From: Candidatus Eremiobacteraceae bacterium
GTDB taxonomy: Bacteria; Vulcanimicrobiota; Vulcanimicrobiia; Eremiobacterales; Eremiobacteraceae
Assembly (NCBI GenBank): GCA_035710745.1
Contig: DASTCX010000025.1
Location: 62,001-126,000 of the forward strand
Length of the DNA stretch: 64,000 nt
Reading direction: 5' to 3'
Part shown: in pieces, positions 3,388 through 35,106 of the stretch
Layout of the letters: the number at the start of each line of letters is the position of its first letter
Position numbering within the stretch: position 1 is the first letter of the stretch
Translations under genes and position numbers: made by a program
The notes under the pieces: model-generated
The model's database searches: none
The model's input: the letters and a program-made list of their open reading frames with translations, nothing else
What the model was told of the DNA's origin: nothing

Positions 3388-3412
3388 GCGGTCGACCTTT
3401 AAGGTCGACCGC
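3388..3412. repeat. Family A palindrome, ACC/GGT version
   Basis: Perfect 12-bp inverted repeat around a single central base, within GCGGTCGACC...GGTCGACCGC, followed by CGCGGTCTTTT. It lies between two converging genes and is one of 19 copies of this family in the window. A role as bidirectional terminator or 3' end stabiliser is inferred from position. Confidence 0.9.
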
Positions 3413-4435: not shown

Positions 4436-4500
4436 GGCGCGCGATGTTCTCTGGGTTCGCGAAAGGTCCCCGCACGCGTGCGCGAAAGTCGGACGCCGAC

Positions 4501-5751
4501 ATGACCCTGACGACAAACGGGGATGACGGCCGCGATGCGCAGGCTCGCGCGCTCGACGAGCAGATCCTGAGTTTCATCGCATCGGAGCGGCCATCAGACG
4601 CCGATTTCGACCGGCTCGCGCTGGCCTGCTTCGCATATCAATACGAACGCTGCGAACCATATCGGCGGCTTTGCGATCGAGCGGGGCAATCGCCGCACGA
4701 CGTTTCGTCGTGGGTTGACGTACCGCCGGTCCAAAGCGCGTCATTCGCGATCGCGCGCCTCGCATGCTTCCCACGCGAACGCACGACGGTGGAATTCCAT
4801 TCGAGCGGAACCACGTCGTCCGGCGAGCGCGCATCGACGATCGAGCTCGATTCGCCCGAGCTCTATGAAGCTTCGCTGCTCGCGCATTTCCGCCGCCGCA
4901 TAATGCCCGACGCTCCGACGATGCGGATCCTCGCGCTCGTGCCCTCGCGAACCGATGCGCCCAACTCGTCGCTATCGTACATGGCCGCGCACCTCATCGA
5001 TTCGGTCGGGGCTGACGGCAGCGGCTTCTTCATCGTCGACGGCGAGCTCGCGTACGAAGCATTGTGCGAAGCGCTCGCTCGGCCGGAGCCGGCGATCGTC
5101 TTCGGTACCGCGTTCTCCTTCGTCCACCTCTTCGACCGTTGTCGCCCCGATGGCCTGACCTTCCGTTTGCCGGCGGGCAGCCGCGTTGTCGAGACCGGAG
5201 GCTTCAAAGGGCGGTCGCGCGAGGTGCCACGCGAAGAGTTGTACGGGTCCTTCACCGAGTTTTTGGCCGTGCCGCGCGAGATGTGCGCATCTGAGTACGG
5301 CATGTGCGAACTCAGTAGCCAGTGGTACGATGCGACGATCGAGCGCCGACCTTCGCTCGGCATACCACATTCTGCCGGCATACCACATGCTGTTGACATA
5401 CCACATGCTGTTGACATACCACATTCTGTTGACATACCACATCCTGTCGGCATGCCACATTCTGTTGGCAAACAACATTCTGTTGGCACAGCACATTCTG
5501 TCAAGGTCGGGCCGCACTGGGCCAAAGCGATCGTCGTAGATCCCATGACCGCACGACCGGTCGAGCCGGGAACCGAAGGGCTCATCCGCATCTTCGATCT
5601 GAGCAACCGAGGATCGGTGTGCGCGCTCGTCACGGGCGATCTCGGCGTCGAGCGCGATGGCGGCTTCGTCCTGCTCGGGCGATCCGCGGGCGCCCCACCG
5701 AAAGGATGCAGCATCGAAGCTGACGAGCTGCTGACTCGCGGCCGTGGTTGA
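4501..5751 (+). CDS. LuxE-like acyl-protein synthetase with an 8-unit tandem repeat insert
   Basis: 416 residues of the LuxE (acyl-protein synthetase) branch of adenylate-forming enzymes. Family marks are FHSSGTTSSGERAS (adenylate loop), CASEYGMCELSSQWYD, FDLSNRGSVCALVTGDLGV and the C-terminal KGCSIE, whose Cys403 corresponds to the cysteine that LuxE uses to carry the acyl group. LuxE activates a fatty acid as acyl-AMP and hands it to LuxC as a thioester. Residues 287-334 are eight six-residue repeats (GIPHSA/DIPHAV type) placed between the ELSSQWYD motif and the C-terminal subdomain; they are not part of the family. ATG 4501 leaves room for a divergent promoter; ATG 4444 is possible. The next gene starts 8 bases before this stop. 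Confidence 0.85.
   Translation: MTLTTNGDDGRDAQARALDEQILSFIASERPSDADFDRLALACFAYQYERCEPYRRLCDRAGQSPHDVSSWVDVPPVQSASFAIARLACFPRERTTVEFHSSGTTSSGERASTIELDSPELYEASLLAHFRRRIMPDAPTMRILALVPSRTDAPNSSLSYMAAHLIDSVGADGSGFFIVDGELAYEALCEALARPEPAIVFGTAFSFVHLFDRCRPDGLTFRLPAGSRVVETGGFKGRSREVPREELYGSFTEFLAVPREMCASEYGMCELSSQWYDATIERRPSLGIPHSAGIPHAVDIPHAVDIPHSVDIPHPVGMPHSVGKQHSVGTAHSVKVGPHWAKAIVVDPMTARPVEPGTEGLIRIFDLSNRGSVCALVTGDLGVERDGGFVLLGRSAGAPPKGCSIEADELLTRGRG
5359..5502 (+). repeat. Eight tandem 18-bp repeats inside the luxE-like gene
   Basis: Eight consecutive units related to GACATACCACATTCTGTT, all in frame, encoding (G/D)-I-P-H-(S/A/P)-(V/A). Units 2-5 are nearly identical and units 7-8 have diverged in their first half (GKQHSV, GTAHSV). 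The tract is visibly richer in A+T than the surrounding gene. Because 18 is a multiple of 3, changes in copy number would alter protein length without shifting the frame. This is an array within one gene, without spacers, so it is not CRISPR. Confidence 0.97.
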
Positions 5752-6877
5752 TACCTCGGTTCGCGCGCAGCTCATCGCGCGCGGCGCGGCGCAATGGCGC
5801 GATCATCGATCAGAGGTCCGCGAAAAAGCTCGGCTGGCTTTGCGCGACTCGGAGTGGTCGTCGGCCGTCGTGGAGGCAGCGCTCGGCGATGTCTTATTCG
5901 ACCTCGACGACGAGCGCTCGCAAACGCTGGCAGTGGAACGGCCACGCGAAGATGAGCGACCGGTTCTCGTCATCCTGCCGGGCAACATCATCGGTCCGGC
6001 GATCGCGTCGGCCTACTGCGCTGCGGCGGCGGGCGCGAACGTCATCCTGAAGTCGCCTGGAAGTGAGAGGAAGATCGCGCCGATCATCGCCGAGCAATTC
6101 GATACGCTCGGCAAGCCGCTCGCCGGCACGATCGACGCGCGATATTGGAAGGGTGGCGATTTCGAGATCGAGCCGGCTTTGTTCCAATCGGTCAGAAAGA
6201 TCATCGCGTTCGGCTCGGACGAGGCGCTCGACCAAATCGAACGACGCGCGCCGGTCCCTCTCCGCGGCTACGGTACATCATATTCCGTAGGCTTCGTCTC
6301 TGCGGACACTGATCTGGCGAGCGCCGCTTCCTGTGCGGCGCGCGACGTCGCGATGTTCGACCAGCGCGGCTGCATGTCACCGCGGACGATTTACGTCGAG
6401 GGTGATGAAGGACGCTCGTTGTTGTTCGCTCGCGCACTCGAAGCCGAGATGCGGAACGTCCGGCAGACATTGCCGCGAGGGCGGATAGCGCACGACGAAG
6501 CCGCGGCGATCGCGATGTCAATCCGCAAGTTGTCGGTGAACGCCCTCGCGCCGAAGACGCACGGGCTCGACACACTCATCGTCGGCCCGGACGAGGGCGG
6601 CGTGCCGGGCTTCGTAATCGTCGTGGAACCGGATGGTCCGCCGACCACCGAGGGCTTCTCGCGCATCGTCTCTGTCAAACCGTGCGGGAACATCGATACA
6701 ATCGTAGCCATCGCGATGACGGCAACGATCAAGCTCGAGTCACTTGGAGTGTGCGGCGTCGTCACTTCCGCTCAGCGCGAACGCCTCCTCGCCGCCGGCT
6801 TCCTACGCGTGTGCCGGCTTGGCGAGATGCAGCGTCCGCCGTTCGGCTACCGGCCGACCGTTGAGGATTTCAGATGA
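5744..6877 (+). CDS. LuxC-like acyl reductase
   Basis: 377 residues of the acyl-CoA/acyl-protein reductase (LuxC) branch of the aldehyde dehydrogenase superfamily. Seen: LVILPGNIIGPAIASAYCAA and ANVILKSPGSE (nucleotide-binding region), FGSDEALDQI, RGYGTSYSVGFV and the catalytic-cysteine region MFDQRGCMSPRTIYVEG with Cys210. LuxC reduces an activated acyl group to an aldehyde with NADPH. The protein is about 100 residues shorter than bioluminescence LuxC, mostly at the N-terminus. GTG 5744 overlaps the LuxE-like stop by 8 bases and the 3' end overlaps the aminotransferase by 4 bases, so the three genes are translationally coupled. There are no luxA, luxB or luxD genes, so this is not a light operon. 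Confidence 0.85.
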   Translation: MVDTSVRAQLIARGAAQWRDHRSEVREKARLALRDSEWSSAVVEAALGDVLFDLDDERSQTLAVERPREDERPVLVILPGNIIGPAIASAYCAAAAGANVILKSPGSERKIAPIIAEQFDTLGKPLAGTIDARYWKGGDFEIEPALFQSVRKIIAFGSDEALDQIERRAPVPLRGYGTSYSVGFVSADTDLASAASCAARDVAMFDQRGCMSPRTIYVEGDEGRSLLFARALEAEMRNVRQTLPRGRIAHDEAAAIAMSIRKLSVNALAPKTHGLDTLIVGPDEGGVPGFVIVVEPDGPPTTEGFSRIVSVKPCGNIDTIVAIAMTATIKLESLGVCGVVTSAQRERLLAAGFLRVCRLGEMQRPPFGYRPTVEDFR

Positions 6878-8229
6878 CCGGCCGCGACCTCGCGAAGATC
6901 GTCGTGACGCCTCCCGGTCCGAAGAGCCGGGCGCTCACGCGCGACCTCCAGGCGGTCGAGAGCCGGAACATCACCTTCGTGTCCGACGATTTTCCCGTCT
7001 TCTTCGAAGCCGGCGCGGGCGCGAATCTCCAAGACGCGGACGGCAACGTCTACGTCGATCTGTCGGGCGCGTTTGCCGTCGCAGCTGCCGGGCACAGCGA
7101 CCCGGATATCGCCGAAGCGCTCGGAGATCAAGCGAAGCGGCTCATGCACGGCATGGGCGACGTTCACCCGAACAGCCTCAAGGTCGAACTTGCGAGACGG
7201 CTGTGCGCGCTCACGCCGGGCGACGGGCCCAAGCGGGTCATCTTCTCTTCCTCGGGCGCCGAAGCGATCGAATCGGCCATCAAGACGGCCGCGATCGCGA
7301 GCGGCAAGCCGGGCGTCCTTTGCTTTACCGGCGCCTACCATGGTCTCACGTACGGCGCGCTCGAAGTGACCGATCGGAGCATCTTCCGCGCGCCGTTCGT
7401 CCGACAGCTCGGCGGTTTCTCGACGCGCGTGCCGTACGCGTACTGCCATCGCTGCCCGATCGGCCTTCATTATCCCGGCTGTTCGATCGAGTGCTTGCGG
7501 CTGGTCGAGCACGCCCTCGATGGACCCGACGGCGCCGACGTCGGCGCGATCATCGTCGAGCCGATCCAAGCGCGCGGCGGCGACGTCGTGCCTCCGAACG
7601 AGTGGCTTCGAGGTCTGCGAGCGCTCTGCGATAGGCGCGGTCTGCTCTTCATCGCAGATGAGATCTACGCAGGCTTCGGTCGCACCGGGAAATGGTTCGC
7701 CTGCGATCACGCCGGCGTCGTCCCCGACCTCATCTGCGTCGGCAAGGGGATGTCGTCCGGATTCCCGATCTCCGCGTGCGTCGGCAGCGCGGATCTCATG
7801 GATCGTTGGCCCCCATCGTCGGGCGAGGCCATCCATACGTCGACGTTCCTCGGCAATCCGATGGGCTGCGCCGCAGCCCTCGCTTCGATCAGGCAGCTGC
7901 ACGACAAGCGGCTCGTCGAGCGTGCTGCGACACTCGGAGCGGGGTTGGCACAGCGGCTCGAAGCTCTTCGCGCAAGATCGGAGGGCCGTATCGCTGATGT
8001 CCGCGGTCGCGGTCTCATGTGGGGCCTCGAGTGCGTCGACGAAAGAGGCGAGCCCGACGGAGCGCTTGCCGGCGCGATCGTCGTCGGCGTCTTGCGACGC
8101 GGCGTCGTGATGCTGGCGTCTGGTCCCGCGGGCAGCGTGCTCCAGCTTGCTCCGCCGCTCGTCATCACGGACGAGCAGTTGCGGTTCGGTGTCGACGAAA
8201 TCGAGTCGGCGCTGGTTCAAACCCGCTAA
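6874..8229 (+). CDS. Class III pyridoxal-phosphate aminotransferase
   Basis: 451 residues of the class III (ornithine/GABA/diamine) aminotransferases. Visible: FSSSGAEAIESAIK (phosphate cup), FTGAYHGLTYGALEVTD, DEIYAGFGRTGKWFA with the cofactor Asp, VGKGMSSGFP with the Schiff-base Lys291, and STFLGNPMGCAAALASI. A cysteine-rich segment YCHRCPIGLHYPGCSIEC is typical of a subgroup annotated as aspartate aminotransferase family. Enzymes of this class move an amino group onto an aldehyde or ketone. Coupling to an acyl reductase suggests that the aldehyde product is aminated, which is an inference from gene order. ATG 6874 overlaps the previous stop as ATGA. Confidence 0.88.
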   Translation: MTGRDLAKIVVTPPGPKSRALTRDLQAVESRNITFVSDDFPVFFEAGAGANLQDADGNVYVDLSGAFAVAAAGHSDPDIAEALGDQAKRLMHGMGDVHPNSLKVELARRLCALTPGDGPKRVIFSSSGAEAIESAIKTAAIASGKPGVLCFTGAYHGLTYGALEVTDRSIFRAPFVRQLGGFSTRVPYAYCHRCPIGLHYPGCSIECLRLVEHALDGPDGADVGAIIVEPIQARGGDVVPPNEWLRGLRALCDRRGLLFIADEIYAGFGRTGKWFACDHAGVVPDLICVGKGMSSGFPISACVGSADLMDRWPPSSGEAIHTSTFLGNPMGCAAALASIRQLHDKRLVERAATLGAGLAQRLEALRARSEGRIADVRGRGLMWGLECVDERGEPDGALAGAIVVGVLRRGVVMLASGPAGSVLQLAPPLVITDEQLRFGVDEIESALVQTR

Positions 8230-9949: not shown

Positions 9950-10103
9950 GAGGGAAAGTCCGCGGCGGTCGACCATAAAGGTCGACCGCTCCCCATTCCC
10001 ATTTTAAAAGACCGCGGCGGTCGACCATAAAGGTCGACCGCTCCCCATTCCTATTTAAAAGACCGCGGCGATCGAGATAAATCTCGACCGCTCCCTATTT
10101 CTA
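9950..10103. repeat. Three tandem family A palindrome units
   Basis: Palindromes at 9965-9989, 10017-10041 (ACC/GGT version) and 10068-10091 (AGA/TCT version), repeating about every 52 bases with conserved flanks (AAAAGACCGCG before and CTCCCCATTCC after). The first two are nearly identical, a sign of local duplication. The third has one outer mismatch. They fill the gap between converging genes. Confidence 0.93.
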
Positions 10104-17193: not shown

Positions 17194-17371
17194 GCGGTCG
17201 AGCTTTAGCTCGACCGCCGCGGTTGTTCTTGAGTGGGGAAAGGGAGCGGTCGACCTTTACGGTCGACCGCCGCGGCCTTGCTTCAAGGTCGTCTCCGGTC
17301 GAGCTAAAGCTCGACCGCCACAAGTCATTCGTCTGTAAGGTCGTCTGCGGTCGACCGTGAAGGTCGACCGC
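17194..17371. repeat. Cluster of four family A palindromes
   Basis: Copies at 17194-17217 (AGC/GCT), 17246-17270 (ACC/GGT), 17296-17317 (AGC/GCT) and 17347-17371 (ACC/GGT), spaced about 51 bases apart and alternating between two inner-stem versions. They occupy nearly the whole 236-base gap between converging genes; nothing else is visible in that gap. Confidence 0.93.
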
Positions 17372-25530: not shown

Positions 25531-25715
25531 AAGGCGCGGCCGACATCGTGCGGGTGCCGGCCGTCGGAGCGGCCGGCATGTCGAGCAGCCGGCCATTTCG
25601 AGCGATCGCGAGACGCGACCGAAAGGACCCCGGCCTTCGACGCCGATAGCGGGTCGCCTCTCGCACGCGCGGTCCACAGCGGGTGCCTAAACGGACCTTC
25701 GAGAATTTCTGTGCG

Positions 25716-26405
25716 ATGCTCGCCGTCTCGACGCTCGAAGTGAGCGAGACCTTTCCATCGTTGCAGGGCGAGGGCTCGCTGGTCGGCTCTGCGTCGTTCT
25801 TCATCCGGCTGGATGGCTGCCCGCTCCGCTGCACGTGGTGCGACACGCCGTATGCGCTCGCCGGCGATGCAGGACGCACGATGTCGATCGACGATCTCGC
25901 TTCTCTCGCGAGCGGTTATCGGCGCGTCGTCATCACCGGCGGCGAACCTCTCGCGCAGGACATCGGGCCGCTCGTCGATCGCCTCACGCCGCGCCACCAC
26001 GTGACGGTCGAGACGAGCGGCGCTATGTTCGCCGATCTGCCGAAGGTGTCGCTGTTCTCGCTCAGCCCGAAGGTCGGAAGCTCGGGCTACAAGCCCAAGA
26101 TCGAAGTGCTCCGCAAGTATTGCGCGAGCGCGCCGGGGCGGATGCATGTGAAGTTCGTCATCGCGGACGGCCGCGATCTCGACGAGGCGTTCGACTGCCT
26201 CGCCGCGATCGAGAACGAGTTGCCCGCGGCGACGCCTGTGATCTTGCAGCCCGAGAGCGGCTCGGCCGGACGAGGCGAGGACTATAGCGCGGCGCTGCGT
26301 CGGATCGCGGACCGCGTCATCGGAGAGGAACGCTGGCGCCGCTTCGACGTGCGCGTGCTGCCGCAGCTCCACTACTTGATGTGGGGCGGAGAGCCGGGCC
26401 GTTGA
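25716..26405 (+). CDS. queE: 7-carboxy-7-deazaguanine synthase
   Basis: About 229 residues, a short radical-SAM enzyme. The iron-sulfur motif is CPLRCTWC with Cys35, Cys39 and Cys42, preceded by FPSLQGEGSLVG, which is diagnostic for QueE. Later VVITGGEPLAQD and VTVETSGAMF belong to the SAM barrel. It converts the QueD product carboxytetrahydropterin into carboxydeazaguanine, the base of queuosine and deazaguanine DNA modifications. queD overlaps its stop. The start is uncertain: ATG 25716 is four residues before the conserved STLEVSE strand; GTG 25683 is possible. No queC or queF in the window. Confidence 0.88.
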   Translation: MLAVSTLEVSETFPSLQGEGSLVGSASFFIRLDGCPLRCTWCDTPYALAGDAGRTMSIDDLASLASGYRRVVITGGEPLAQDIGPLVDRLTPRHHVTVETSGAMFADLPKVSLFSLSPKVGSSGYKPKIEVLRKYCASAPGRMHVKFVIADGRDLDEAFDCLAAIENELPAATPVILQPESGSAGRGEDYSAALRRIADRVIGEERWRRFDVRVLPQLHYLMWGGEPGR

Positions 26406-26770
26406 TCTCGATCTCCTATGCGTGCCACTTCGACGCCGCGCATCAGCTCGACGTGCCGTACGAATCGCCATGCAATCGCCGGCACGGTCATCGCTATACG
26501 GTTCGTATCGTCGCGTCAGCCGAGGAGCTGCTCCACGGCATGGTCGTCGACTTCAACCTGCTGAAAGCGGTCGTCGACGAATTCGATCATCGCGATCTGA
26601 ACGAGCTGGCGGACTTCAAAGAGACCGGCCTTCAGACGACCGCGGAGAACATCTGCATCGTGCTCGTCCGCAAGTTGCAGGCGGTCGTCGGCACGCGCGT
26701 GAGCATCGATGAGGTGATCGTGCGAGAGACGCCGCGCTCTGCTGCGAAGTGGCGCAAAACTCCGCGCTAG
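26402..26770 (+). CDS. queD: 6-carboxytetrahydropterin synthase
   Basis: 122 residues of the PTPS/QueD fold. The zinc histidines are visible in FDAAHQL (His14) and RRHGHRY (His28, His30), with catalytic Cys24 in SPCNRR, then VVDFNLLK, FDHRDLNEL and the purine-binding Glu in IVRETPRSAAKW. It turns dihydroneopterin triphosphate into carboxytetrahydropterin, the substrate of QueE. The likely start is TTG 26402, which overlaps the queE stop and gives the usual MISIS-like beginning; the ATG at 26381 lies within queE. Translational coupling is therefore expected. Confidence 0.9.
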   Translation: MISISYACHFDAAHQLDVPYESPCNRRHGHRYTVRIVASAEELLHGMVVDFNLLKAVVDEFDHRDLNELADFKETGLQTTAENICIVLVRKLQAVVGTRVSIDEVIVRETPRSAAKWRKTPR

Positions 26771-34947: not shown

Positions 34948-35106
34948 GCGGTCGACCTTAATGGTCGACCGCAGACGACCTCGCATCATTGCTCCCGTAT
35001 CGATGCTCCCGCTAAGGTAAGACCGCGGCGGTCGACCGTAAAGGTCGACCGCTCCCCCCATTTTTGATAAGGTAAGAGTGCGGCGGTCGAGCTAAAGCTC
35101 GATCGC
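34948..35106. repeat. Three family A palindromes plus a half copy
   Basis: Copies at 34948-34972 (ACC/GGT), 35028-35052 (ACC/GGT) and 35083-35106 (AGC/GCT, one outer mismatch). A half element GGAGCGGTCGAA near 34927 forms the end of the preceding gene. They fill the gap between converging genes. Confidence 0.92.

Follow-up and report, generated by a model that had tools for sequence, protein, structure and literature searches.

A luxE-luxC-aminotransferase cassette as a proposed alternative branch to preQ1 in queuosine biosynthesis

Introduction

The DNA analysed here, referred to throughout as the window, is a stretch of 64,000 nucleotides from the genome of Candidatus Eremiobacteraceae bacterium (assembly GCA_035710745.1, contig DASTCX010000025.1, positions 62,001 to 126,000; C25 in our contig numbering). 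The source genome comprises 2.97 Mb and is 98% complete. The window contains three overlapping genes, here called the cassette, which encode a LuxE-like acyl-adenylating enzyme, a LuxC-like acyl-thioester reductase and a class III pyridoxal phosphate (PLP)-dependent aminotransferase (AT). An earlier sequence-only reading of this locus had seen in it a possible coenzyme A (CoA)-independent conversion of a carboxylic acid via an aldehyde into a primary amine, for example a lipid, a polyamine or a secondary metabolite. We consider it highly probable that the cassette constitutes an alternative preQ1-forming branch of queuosine biosynthesis.

Queuosine is among the most widespread tRNA modifications, and QueD, QueE, QueC and QueF have been taken as its single de novo path. 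The product of QueE, 7-carboxy-7-deazaguanine (CDG), is an acid; preQ1, which is needed for queuosine, is its aminomethyl counterpart, and QueA acts on tRNA carrying preQ1. In the textbook route from CDG to preQ1, QueC turns the acid into a nitrile and QueF then converts the nitrile into the amine (PMC13329287, PMC11130926); QueD, QueE, QueC and QueF are stated to be required for making preQ1 (PMC11130926).

Results

The GTG start codon of luxC overlaps the stop codon of luxE, and luxC and the AT gene share an ATGA overlap (Table 1); an alternative in-frame ATG for luxE lies at 4444. All three products exceed the respective Pfam cut-offs (LuxE, 42.7 bits versus a gathering score of 24.9 for PF04443; LuxC, 109.9 versus 21 for PF05893; AT, 344.5 versus 30.5 for PF00202). 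Coordinates, families and the Cys, Cys and Lys residues of the three proteins agree with the sequence-only reading, and the operon contains no luciferase genes (luxAB), as it had also noted. Since the scores against the bioluminescence equivalog models fall far short of their cut-offs (LuxE, 41.9 versus 550 bits for NF052244; LuxC, 55.7 versus 750 bits for NF052251), the two proteins are best regarded as members of the superfamilies and not as luminescence enzymes. An AlphaFold model of LuxE (pLDDT 85) has a predicted fold of the ANL/PaaK branch, and its best matches in the PDB are PaaK with an aryl-acyl adenylate, and EhpF is matched as well; such matches of a model indicate the fold, not the substrate. 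The LuxC of a congener is 81% identical to that of the window. Within luxE (5359..5501, + strand), an 18-bp in-frame repeat that codes for IPHSVD-like hexapeptides occurs in about eight copies. This insert is modelled as disordered and was found only in this genome; neither the closest congener nor any other aligned relative has it.

Table 1. Features of the cassette and of the queE-queD locus in the window
Feature	Position	Strand	Details
luxE-like acyl-adenylating enzyme, proposed CDG--LuxC ligase	4501..5751	+	416 aa; PF04443, E 4.5e-11
LuxE family motif ETGGFKG	from 5191	+	(nearly) invariant in 30 relatives
LuxE Cys403, acyl-carrying	5707-5709	+	invariant across 30 aligned relatives
luxC-like acyl-thioester reductase	5744..6877	+	377 aa, GTG start; PF05893, E 1.8e-31
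LuxC catalytic Cys210	6371-6373	+	matches the active-site Cys of the LuxC structure 7xc6 in an alignment; invariant in 21 relatives
Class III PLP aminotransferase, cassette clade	6874..8229	+	451 aa; PF00202, E 9e-103
AT PLP Lys291	7744-7746	+	assigned by motif
queE, 7-carboxy-7-deazaguanine synthase	25683..26405	+	Cx3Cx2C motif; start uncertain (25683, 25716 or 25740)
queD, 6-carboxytetrahydropterin synthase, overlaps queE	26381..26770	+	C-x3-HGH motif; PF01242, E 3.6e-26

The distribution of the cassette was determined in a sample of the phylum, with 149 genomes searched for LuxC and 148 (116 members of the class and 32 others) for LuxE and the que genes. LuxE was found upstream and an AT downstream of LuxC in every family of the class. 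A full-strength match to the cassette LuxE is present in 110 of the 116 class genomes versus none of the 32 genomes outside the class. The six class genomes that lack it are mostly incomplete, and in one of them (G087) the cassette is cut by a contig end; the only one with a completeness of 96% (G024) is missing QueA as well. A scan of genome contigs with the LuxE alignment yielded at least 492 relatives, and the 80 that were kept include members of at least nine other phyla, namely Myxococcota, Verrucomicrobiota, Omnitrophota, Gemmatimonadota, Sumerlaeota, Planctomycetota, Spirochaetota, Pseudomonadota and Bacillota (labels from the record titles, for some Verrucomicrobiota from tree neighbours). 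Among the 76 loci analysed (L055-L130), luxC directly follows luxE in 68 and an AT lies nearby in 57, ordered AT-luxE-luxC in 54 cases and luxE-luxC-AT in three. The sequence-only reading had named a loss of gene order in relatives as an argument against its proposal; what we found is an order that is widely conserved. The recurrence of the cassette in nearly every class genome examined and in other phyla is far beyond chance.

In five loci from genomes of the phylum outside the class (L021, L024, L026, L027 and L028), the LuxC domain is part of a fusion with a PaaK-like adenylating domain. Four of these loci have a LuxE-like gene immediately upstream, and no AT was seen; this is a different LuxE/LuxC system.

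The genomic context ties the cassette to the early steps of queuosine synthesis. According to a frame-level search, queE and/or queD directly flank cassette genes in eight of the 76 loci. In the Verrucomicrobia a 215-aa radical SAM protein precedes the AT and a PTPS protein follows LuxC, giving the order queE-AT-luxE-luxC-queD in L126, queE-AT ... luxE-luxC-queD in L103 and queE-AT-luxE-luxC in L060, L079, L086 and L118, while two metagenome-assembled genomes (MAGs) of Bacillota (L098, L107) have the order queD-queE-luxE-luxC-AT. NCBIfam models name the flanking proteins QueE in L079 (303.7 bits, cut-off 300) and QueD in L103 (109.4 bits, cut-off 89.25) and L098 (97.7 bits). In the window, queE and queD follow the cassette at a distance of 18 kb and are encoded on the same strand. 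Their products match the NCBIfam models below the curated cut-offs (QueE, 1.7e-31 for TIGR04349 and 5.6e-29 for TIGR03365; QueD, 3e-20 for TIGR03367). The genome also contains queA, and in several other genomes of the same family queD is found 14-27 kb from the cassette. A search for preQ1 riboswitches near ten cassette loci gave no Rfam match.

Genome-wide searches were made for QueC, QueF, QueA, QueD and LuxE, while QueE was read in the fetched loci only. Nearly all class genomes contain QueA (114/116, versus 11/32 outside the class) and QueD (108/116 versus 17/32). On the other hand, QueF was detected in none of the 116 class genomes, versus eight of the 32 others (six of them strong matches), and canonical QueC, defined in this census by E <= 1e-40, was likewise found in none, versus 15 of the 32. 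Within the phylum sample the two routes thus show no overlap. The same picture was obtained with 50 cassette-locus genomes of other phyla, counted irrespective of completeness. QueA is present in 45 of these and QueF in none, since the 32 weak matches (31 bits at most) correspond to the FolE-like part, in frames mostly of FolE size. Apart from two fragments and five matches of 105-116 bits, the QueC-like matches in the 50 genomes are weak, and a single fragment is canonical.

The remaining QueC-like proteins were compared with the canonical signature YxQxHxxE, VPxRN, YPDC and C(x)8CxxCxxC, as given in a 2026 paper (PMC13329287). This signature is carried by the QueCs of phylum genomes outside the class. 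It is incomplete in the five proteins of 105-116 bits from Verrucomicrobia and Omnitrophota, which lack YxQ (Tyr35), YPDC and Tyr189. The PF06508 protein of the window's genome reads YGQ..E, WPFRN and CH(x)5CxxCxGCxK, has no YPDC and falls outside the canonical type; judged by these motifs it is a QueC-like protein of cluster 4. That type is linked with a PfkB-nucleoside deoxyribosyltransferase (PMC13329287), and the gene in the window's genome adjoins one for such a protein (PfkB-PF05014) as well as an Ogg-HhH gene. Two class genomes share an island with the deoxyribosyltransferase and the cluster 4 QueC-like gene (L169:6550-9857, contig G000:C18, which also has an Ogg-HhH DNA glycosylase, and L171:4887-7495), possibly with a role in defence. 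A further locus (L191:2712-4392, genome G158) has a divergent QueC-like gene beside one that by eye resembles tRNA-guanine transglycosylase, similar to type IV CBASS-like content.

In a tree of aminotransferases, a branch with an SH-aLRT support of 98 separates all 78 cassette-type ATs from 17 paralogue rows, which include the other class III ATs of the window's genome. The cassette group contains the ATs of the Verrucomicrobia que operons, and these share a region of the tree with the window's family (support 92). The two Bacillota ATs (L098, L107) are placed outside this group among the paralogues, in a different class III subfamily. This placement, which is uncertain because of long branches, suggests a second recruitment of an AT. 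In the LuxE tree, proteins encoded by megaplasmids of Azospirillum, Pantoea and Niallia form a clade of their own within or beside the cassette LuxEs. The corresponding LuxE-LuxC pairs (L188:7019-12860, L189:6980-10388 and L190:5095-10388) have as neighbours a short-chain dehydrogenase/reductase (SDR), an NMT1/THI5-type ABC transporter in Azospirillum, and ThiW together with a xanthine/uracil (Xan_ur) permease in Niallia.

Other neighbours of the cassette vary. In the window's family it is flanked by a divergent gene of the metallo-beta-lactamase fold, an MFS gene and a 2-oxoacid dehydrogenase operon. In another family (f3) the operon reads O-acetylhomoserine sulfhydrylase-YccU-luxE-luxC-AT-Gfo/Idh/MocA. 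The three additional proteins were rejected as functional partners, as they are confined to f3 and its relatives. The neighbours in Myxococcota (a SUF operon, PAPS reductase, HPPK and a luciferase-like gene) were discounted as regional synteny not common to other phyla. Elsewhere in the window an element, GCGGTCGACCTTTA, is repeated with 14 matches (at most one mismatch) versus 0.03 expected; its copies often form inverted pairs that are apparently intergenic (3388-3412, 9976-10041, 17194-17371, 34948-35052 and others).

Discussion

The sequences directly support the gene families and catalytic residues of the cassette, its conserved linkage, the operons with queD and queE, the lack of QueF and of canonical QueC, and the presence of QueA and QueD. 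It is the combination of queD/queE operons with the absence of QueC and QueF from genomes that keep QueA which points to CDG as the substrate acid and to preQ1 as the resulting amine, and the chemistry of the cassette is exactly the acid-to-amine step that is missing. QueD and QueE would make CDG as usual. LuxE would then adenylate the CDG carboxylate with ATP, and the acyl group of CDG-AMP would move to the C-terminal Cys403 of LuxE and from there to Cys210 of LuxC. Reduction of the thioester by LuxC with NAD(P)H would give 7-formyl-7-deazaguanine, which the class III AT would aminate to preQ1. The preQ1 would then pass to tRNA-guanine transglycosylase and QueA, so that the module would stand in for QueC plus QueF. 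From comparative genomics we infer this substrate, intermediate, acyl relay and product alike. QueC activates CDG with ATP (PMC13329287), so that ATP-dependent activation of this carboxylate has a precedent. A LuxE-LuxC fusion in one Phycisphaerae MAG (L081) is counted in favour of this explanation as a whole.

The route from acid via aldehyde to primary amine put forward by the sequence-only reading fits all of these data, while its suggested class of substrates is not supported and probably wrong. An amine other than preQ1, such as a lipid amine, a polyamine or another metabolite, with the cassette's position near que genes and the lack of QueC and QueF being coincidental, is in our estimation improbable. 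LuxE and LuxC are indeed known for their action on long-chain acids, the AT is a generic class III enzyme whose closest solved relatives are GABA transaminases, and the additional genes of the f3 operon and the MFS and metallo-beta-lactamase genes of the window's family might suggest other metabolites. However, these flanking genes differ from family to family whereas the set of queuosine genes is constant. Moreover, five-gene operons with queD and queE occur in two lineages and in two gene orders, queE lies beside the AT in four further loci, and cassette genomes are devoid of QueF and of an intact canonical QueC yet keep QueA. Use of the AT as a substitute in arginine, lysine or heme synthesis was also considered and set aside. 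The genome has ten PF00202 matches, and these further class III ATs together with ArgC/Asd-type genes, one of them beside an ArgD candidate, mean that the cassette AT is probably not filling such a gap.

Several observations weigh against the preQ1 route. In Myxococcota and in Eremiobacterota the que genes do not adjoin the cassette; in the window they lie 18 kb away. The phylum census corresponds approximately to one evolutionary split, so that 148 genomes are not 148 independent tests. Six genomes without the cassette (G001, G002, G003, G005, G011 and G012) have strong matches to QueC and QueA and no QueF; the absence of QueF alone is therefore not specific, and these genomes may use another enzyme from preQ0 to preQ1 or a divergent QueF. 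One cassette genome (G152) has no QueA and contains the canonical QueC fragment, situated at the end of a 6.7-kb chimeric-looking contig and joined to unrelated coding sequence, which is likely to reflect contamination or misassembly. No AT lies nearby in 19 of the 76 loci, including those of Gemmatimonadota, several of them being close to a contig end. Finally, the megaplasmid pairs sit with thiamin-precursor-type transporters and an SDR, indicating that the module can serve other acids.

The last two points, together with the Bacillota AT from another subfamily, are also what would favour LuxE-LuxC as a general reductase of heteroaromatic acids, for which the AT is not obligate and preQ1 arises through other ATs or the aldehyde itself is used. 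Indeed, the cassette LuxE group may have several heteroaromatic acids as substrates, and the megaplasmid pairs, in which the SDR takes the place of the AT, possibly reduce a pyrimidine carboxylic acid to a thiamin precursor alcohol. As an account of the cassette we nevertheless regard a general reductase as unlikely, given that an AT adjoins luxE or luxC in 57 of the 76 loci and that the cassette ATs form one clade. Least credible is the production of a different 7-substituted 7-deazaguanine for DNA modification or as a metabolite, with preQ1 for tRNA obtained by salvage: the que linkage by itself shows merely that CDG lies upstream, transporter-based salvage is common (PMC11130926) and there are QueC homologues that have taken on a role in defence (PMC13329287), but QueA is kept in 114 of 116 class genomes and 45 of 50 others, no phage relatives of LuxE were found, the distribution is core-like and not patchy, and salvage would be superfluous as the amine derived from CDG is preQ1 itself.

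The proposed preQ1 route has the same starting compound as that of QueC and QueF, CDG from QueD and QueE, and the same product, the aminomethyl base that precedes QueA. It differs in its intermediates: QueC uses ATP and ammonia to form first an amide and then a nitrile, which QueF reduces with NADPH, whereas the cassette would proceed through an adenylate, a thioester and an aldehyde and obtain its nitrogen from a PLP aminotransferase. The fatty acid reductase LuxC-LuxE of luminous bacteria (7xc6) is homologous, and its acyl-carrying LuxE Cys and catalytic LuxC Cys are retained; unlike the luminous system, the cassette has no luxD or luxAB and is linked to an AT and, in several lineages, to queD/queE. 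EhpF, a phenazine antibiotic biosynthesis protein, is like the cassette LuxE a short LuxE-like ANL enzyme and matches its structural model (PDB 3hgu, 3hgv and 3l2k, which we take to be EhpF). A LuxC-like protein, EhpG, has been proposed as the partner of EhpF in acting on an aromatic acid; EhpF differs in having no AT partner and another substrate, and sequence identity is low (11-13%). PigE in prodigiosin and TamH in tambjamine synthesis likewise convert an acid-derived thioester into an aldehyde that is aminated by a class III-type AT, but with other activating and reducing domains, on fatty substrates and in secondary metabolism. Within the cassette only the AT domain is matched by the PigE model, with a score below its cut-off. 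In the open-licence literature we found nothing relevant that connects LuxE/LuxC with queuosine or a formyl-deazaguanine intermediate, or LuxE with an aminotransferase; LuxE/LuxC clusters described for flagellin glycans represent a different setting.

On the present sequence evidence the cassette route is most likely a previously undescribed variant branch of a widespread pathway. We also think it quite probable that this non-homologous conversion of CDG to preQ1 via an aldehyde and transamination is standard in whole, mostly uncultured lineages, having either spread or come together on more than one occasion, in view of its two gene orders and two AT subfamilies. If the cassette does make preQ1, a missing-gene problem would be explained, and many genomes that are at present classed as salvagers or as incomplete queuosine producers would be producers. 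An aldehyde intermediate would be added to deazaguanine metabolism, and LuxE and LuxC would gain a role in primary metabolism outside luminescence. By our accounting the cassette would also be the cheaper solution: it would consume an amino donor, one NADPH and one ATP, the latter cleaved to AMP, whereas the QueC-QueF route needs ammonia and two molecules each of ATP and NADPH. For biocatalysis, a CoA-free module that turns a heteroaromatic acid into an amine would be of interest as well.

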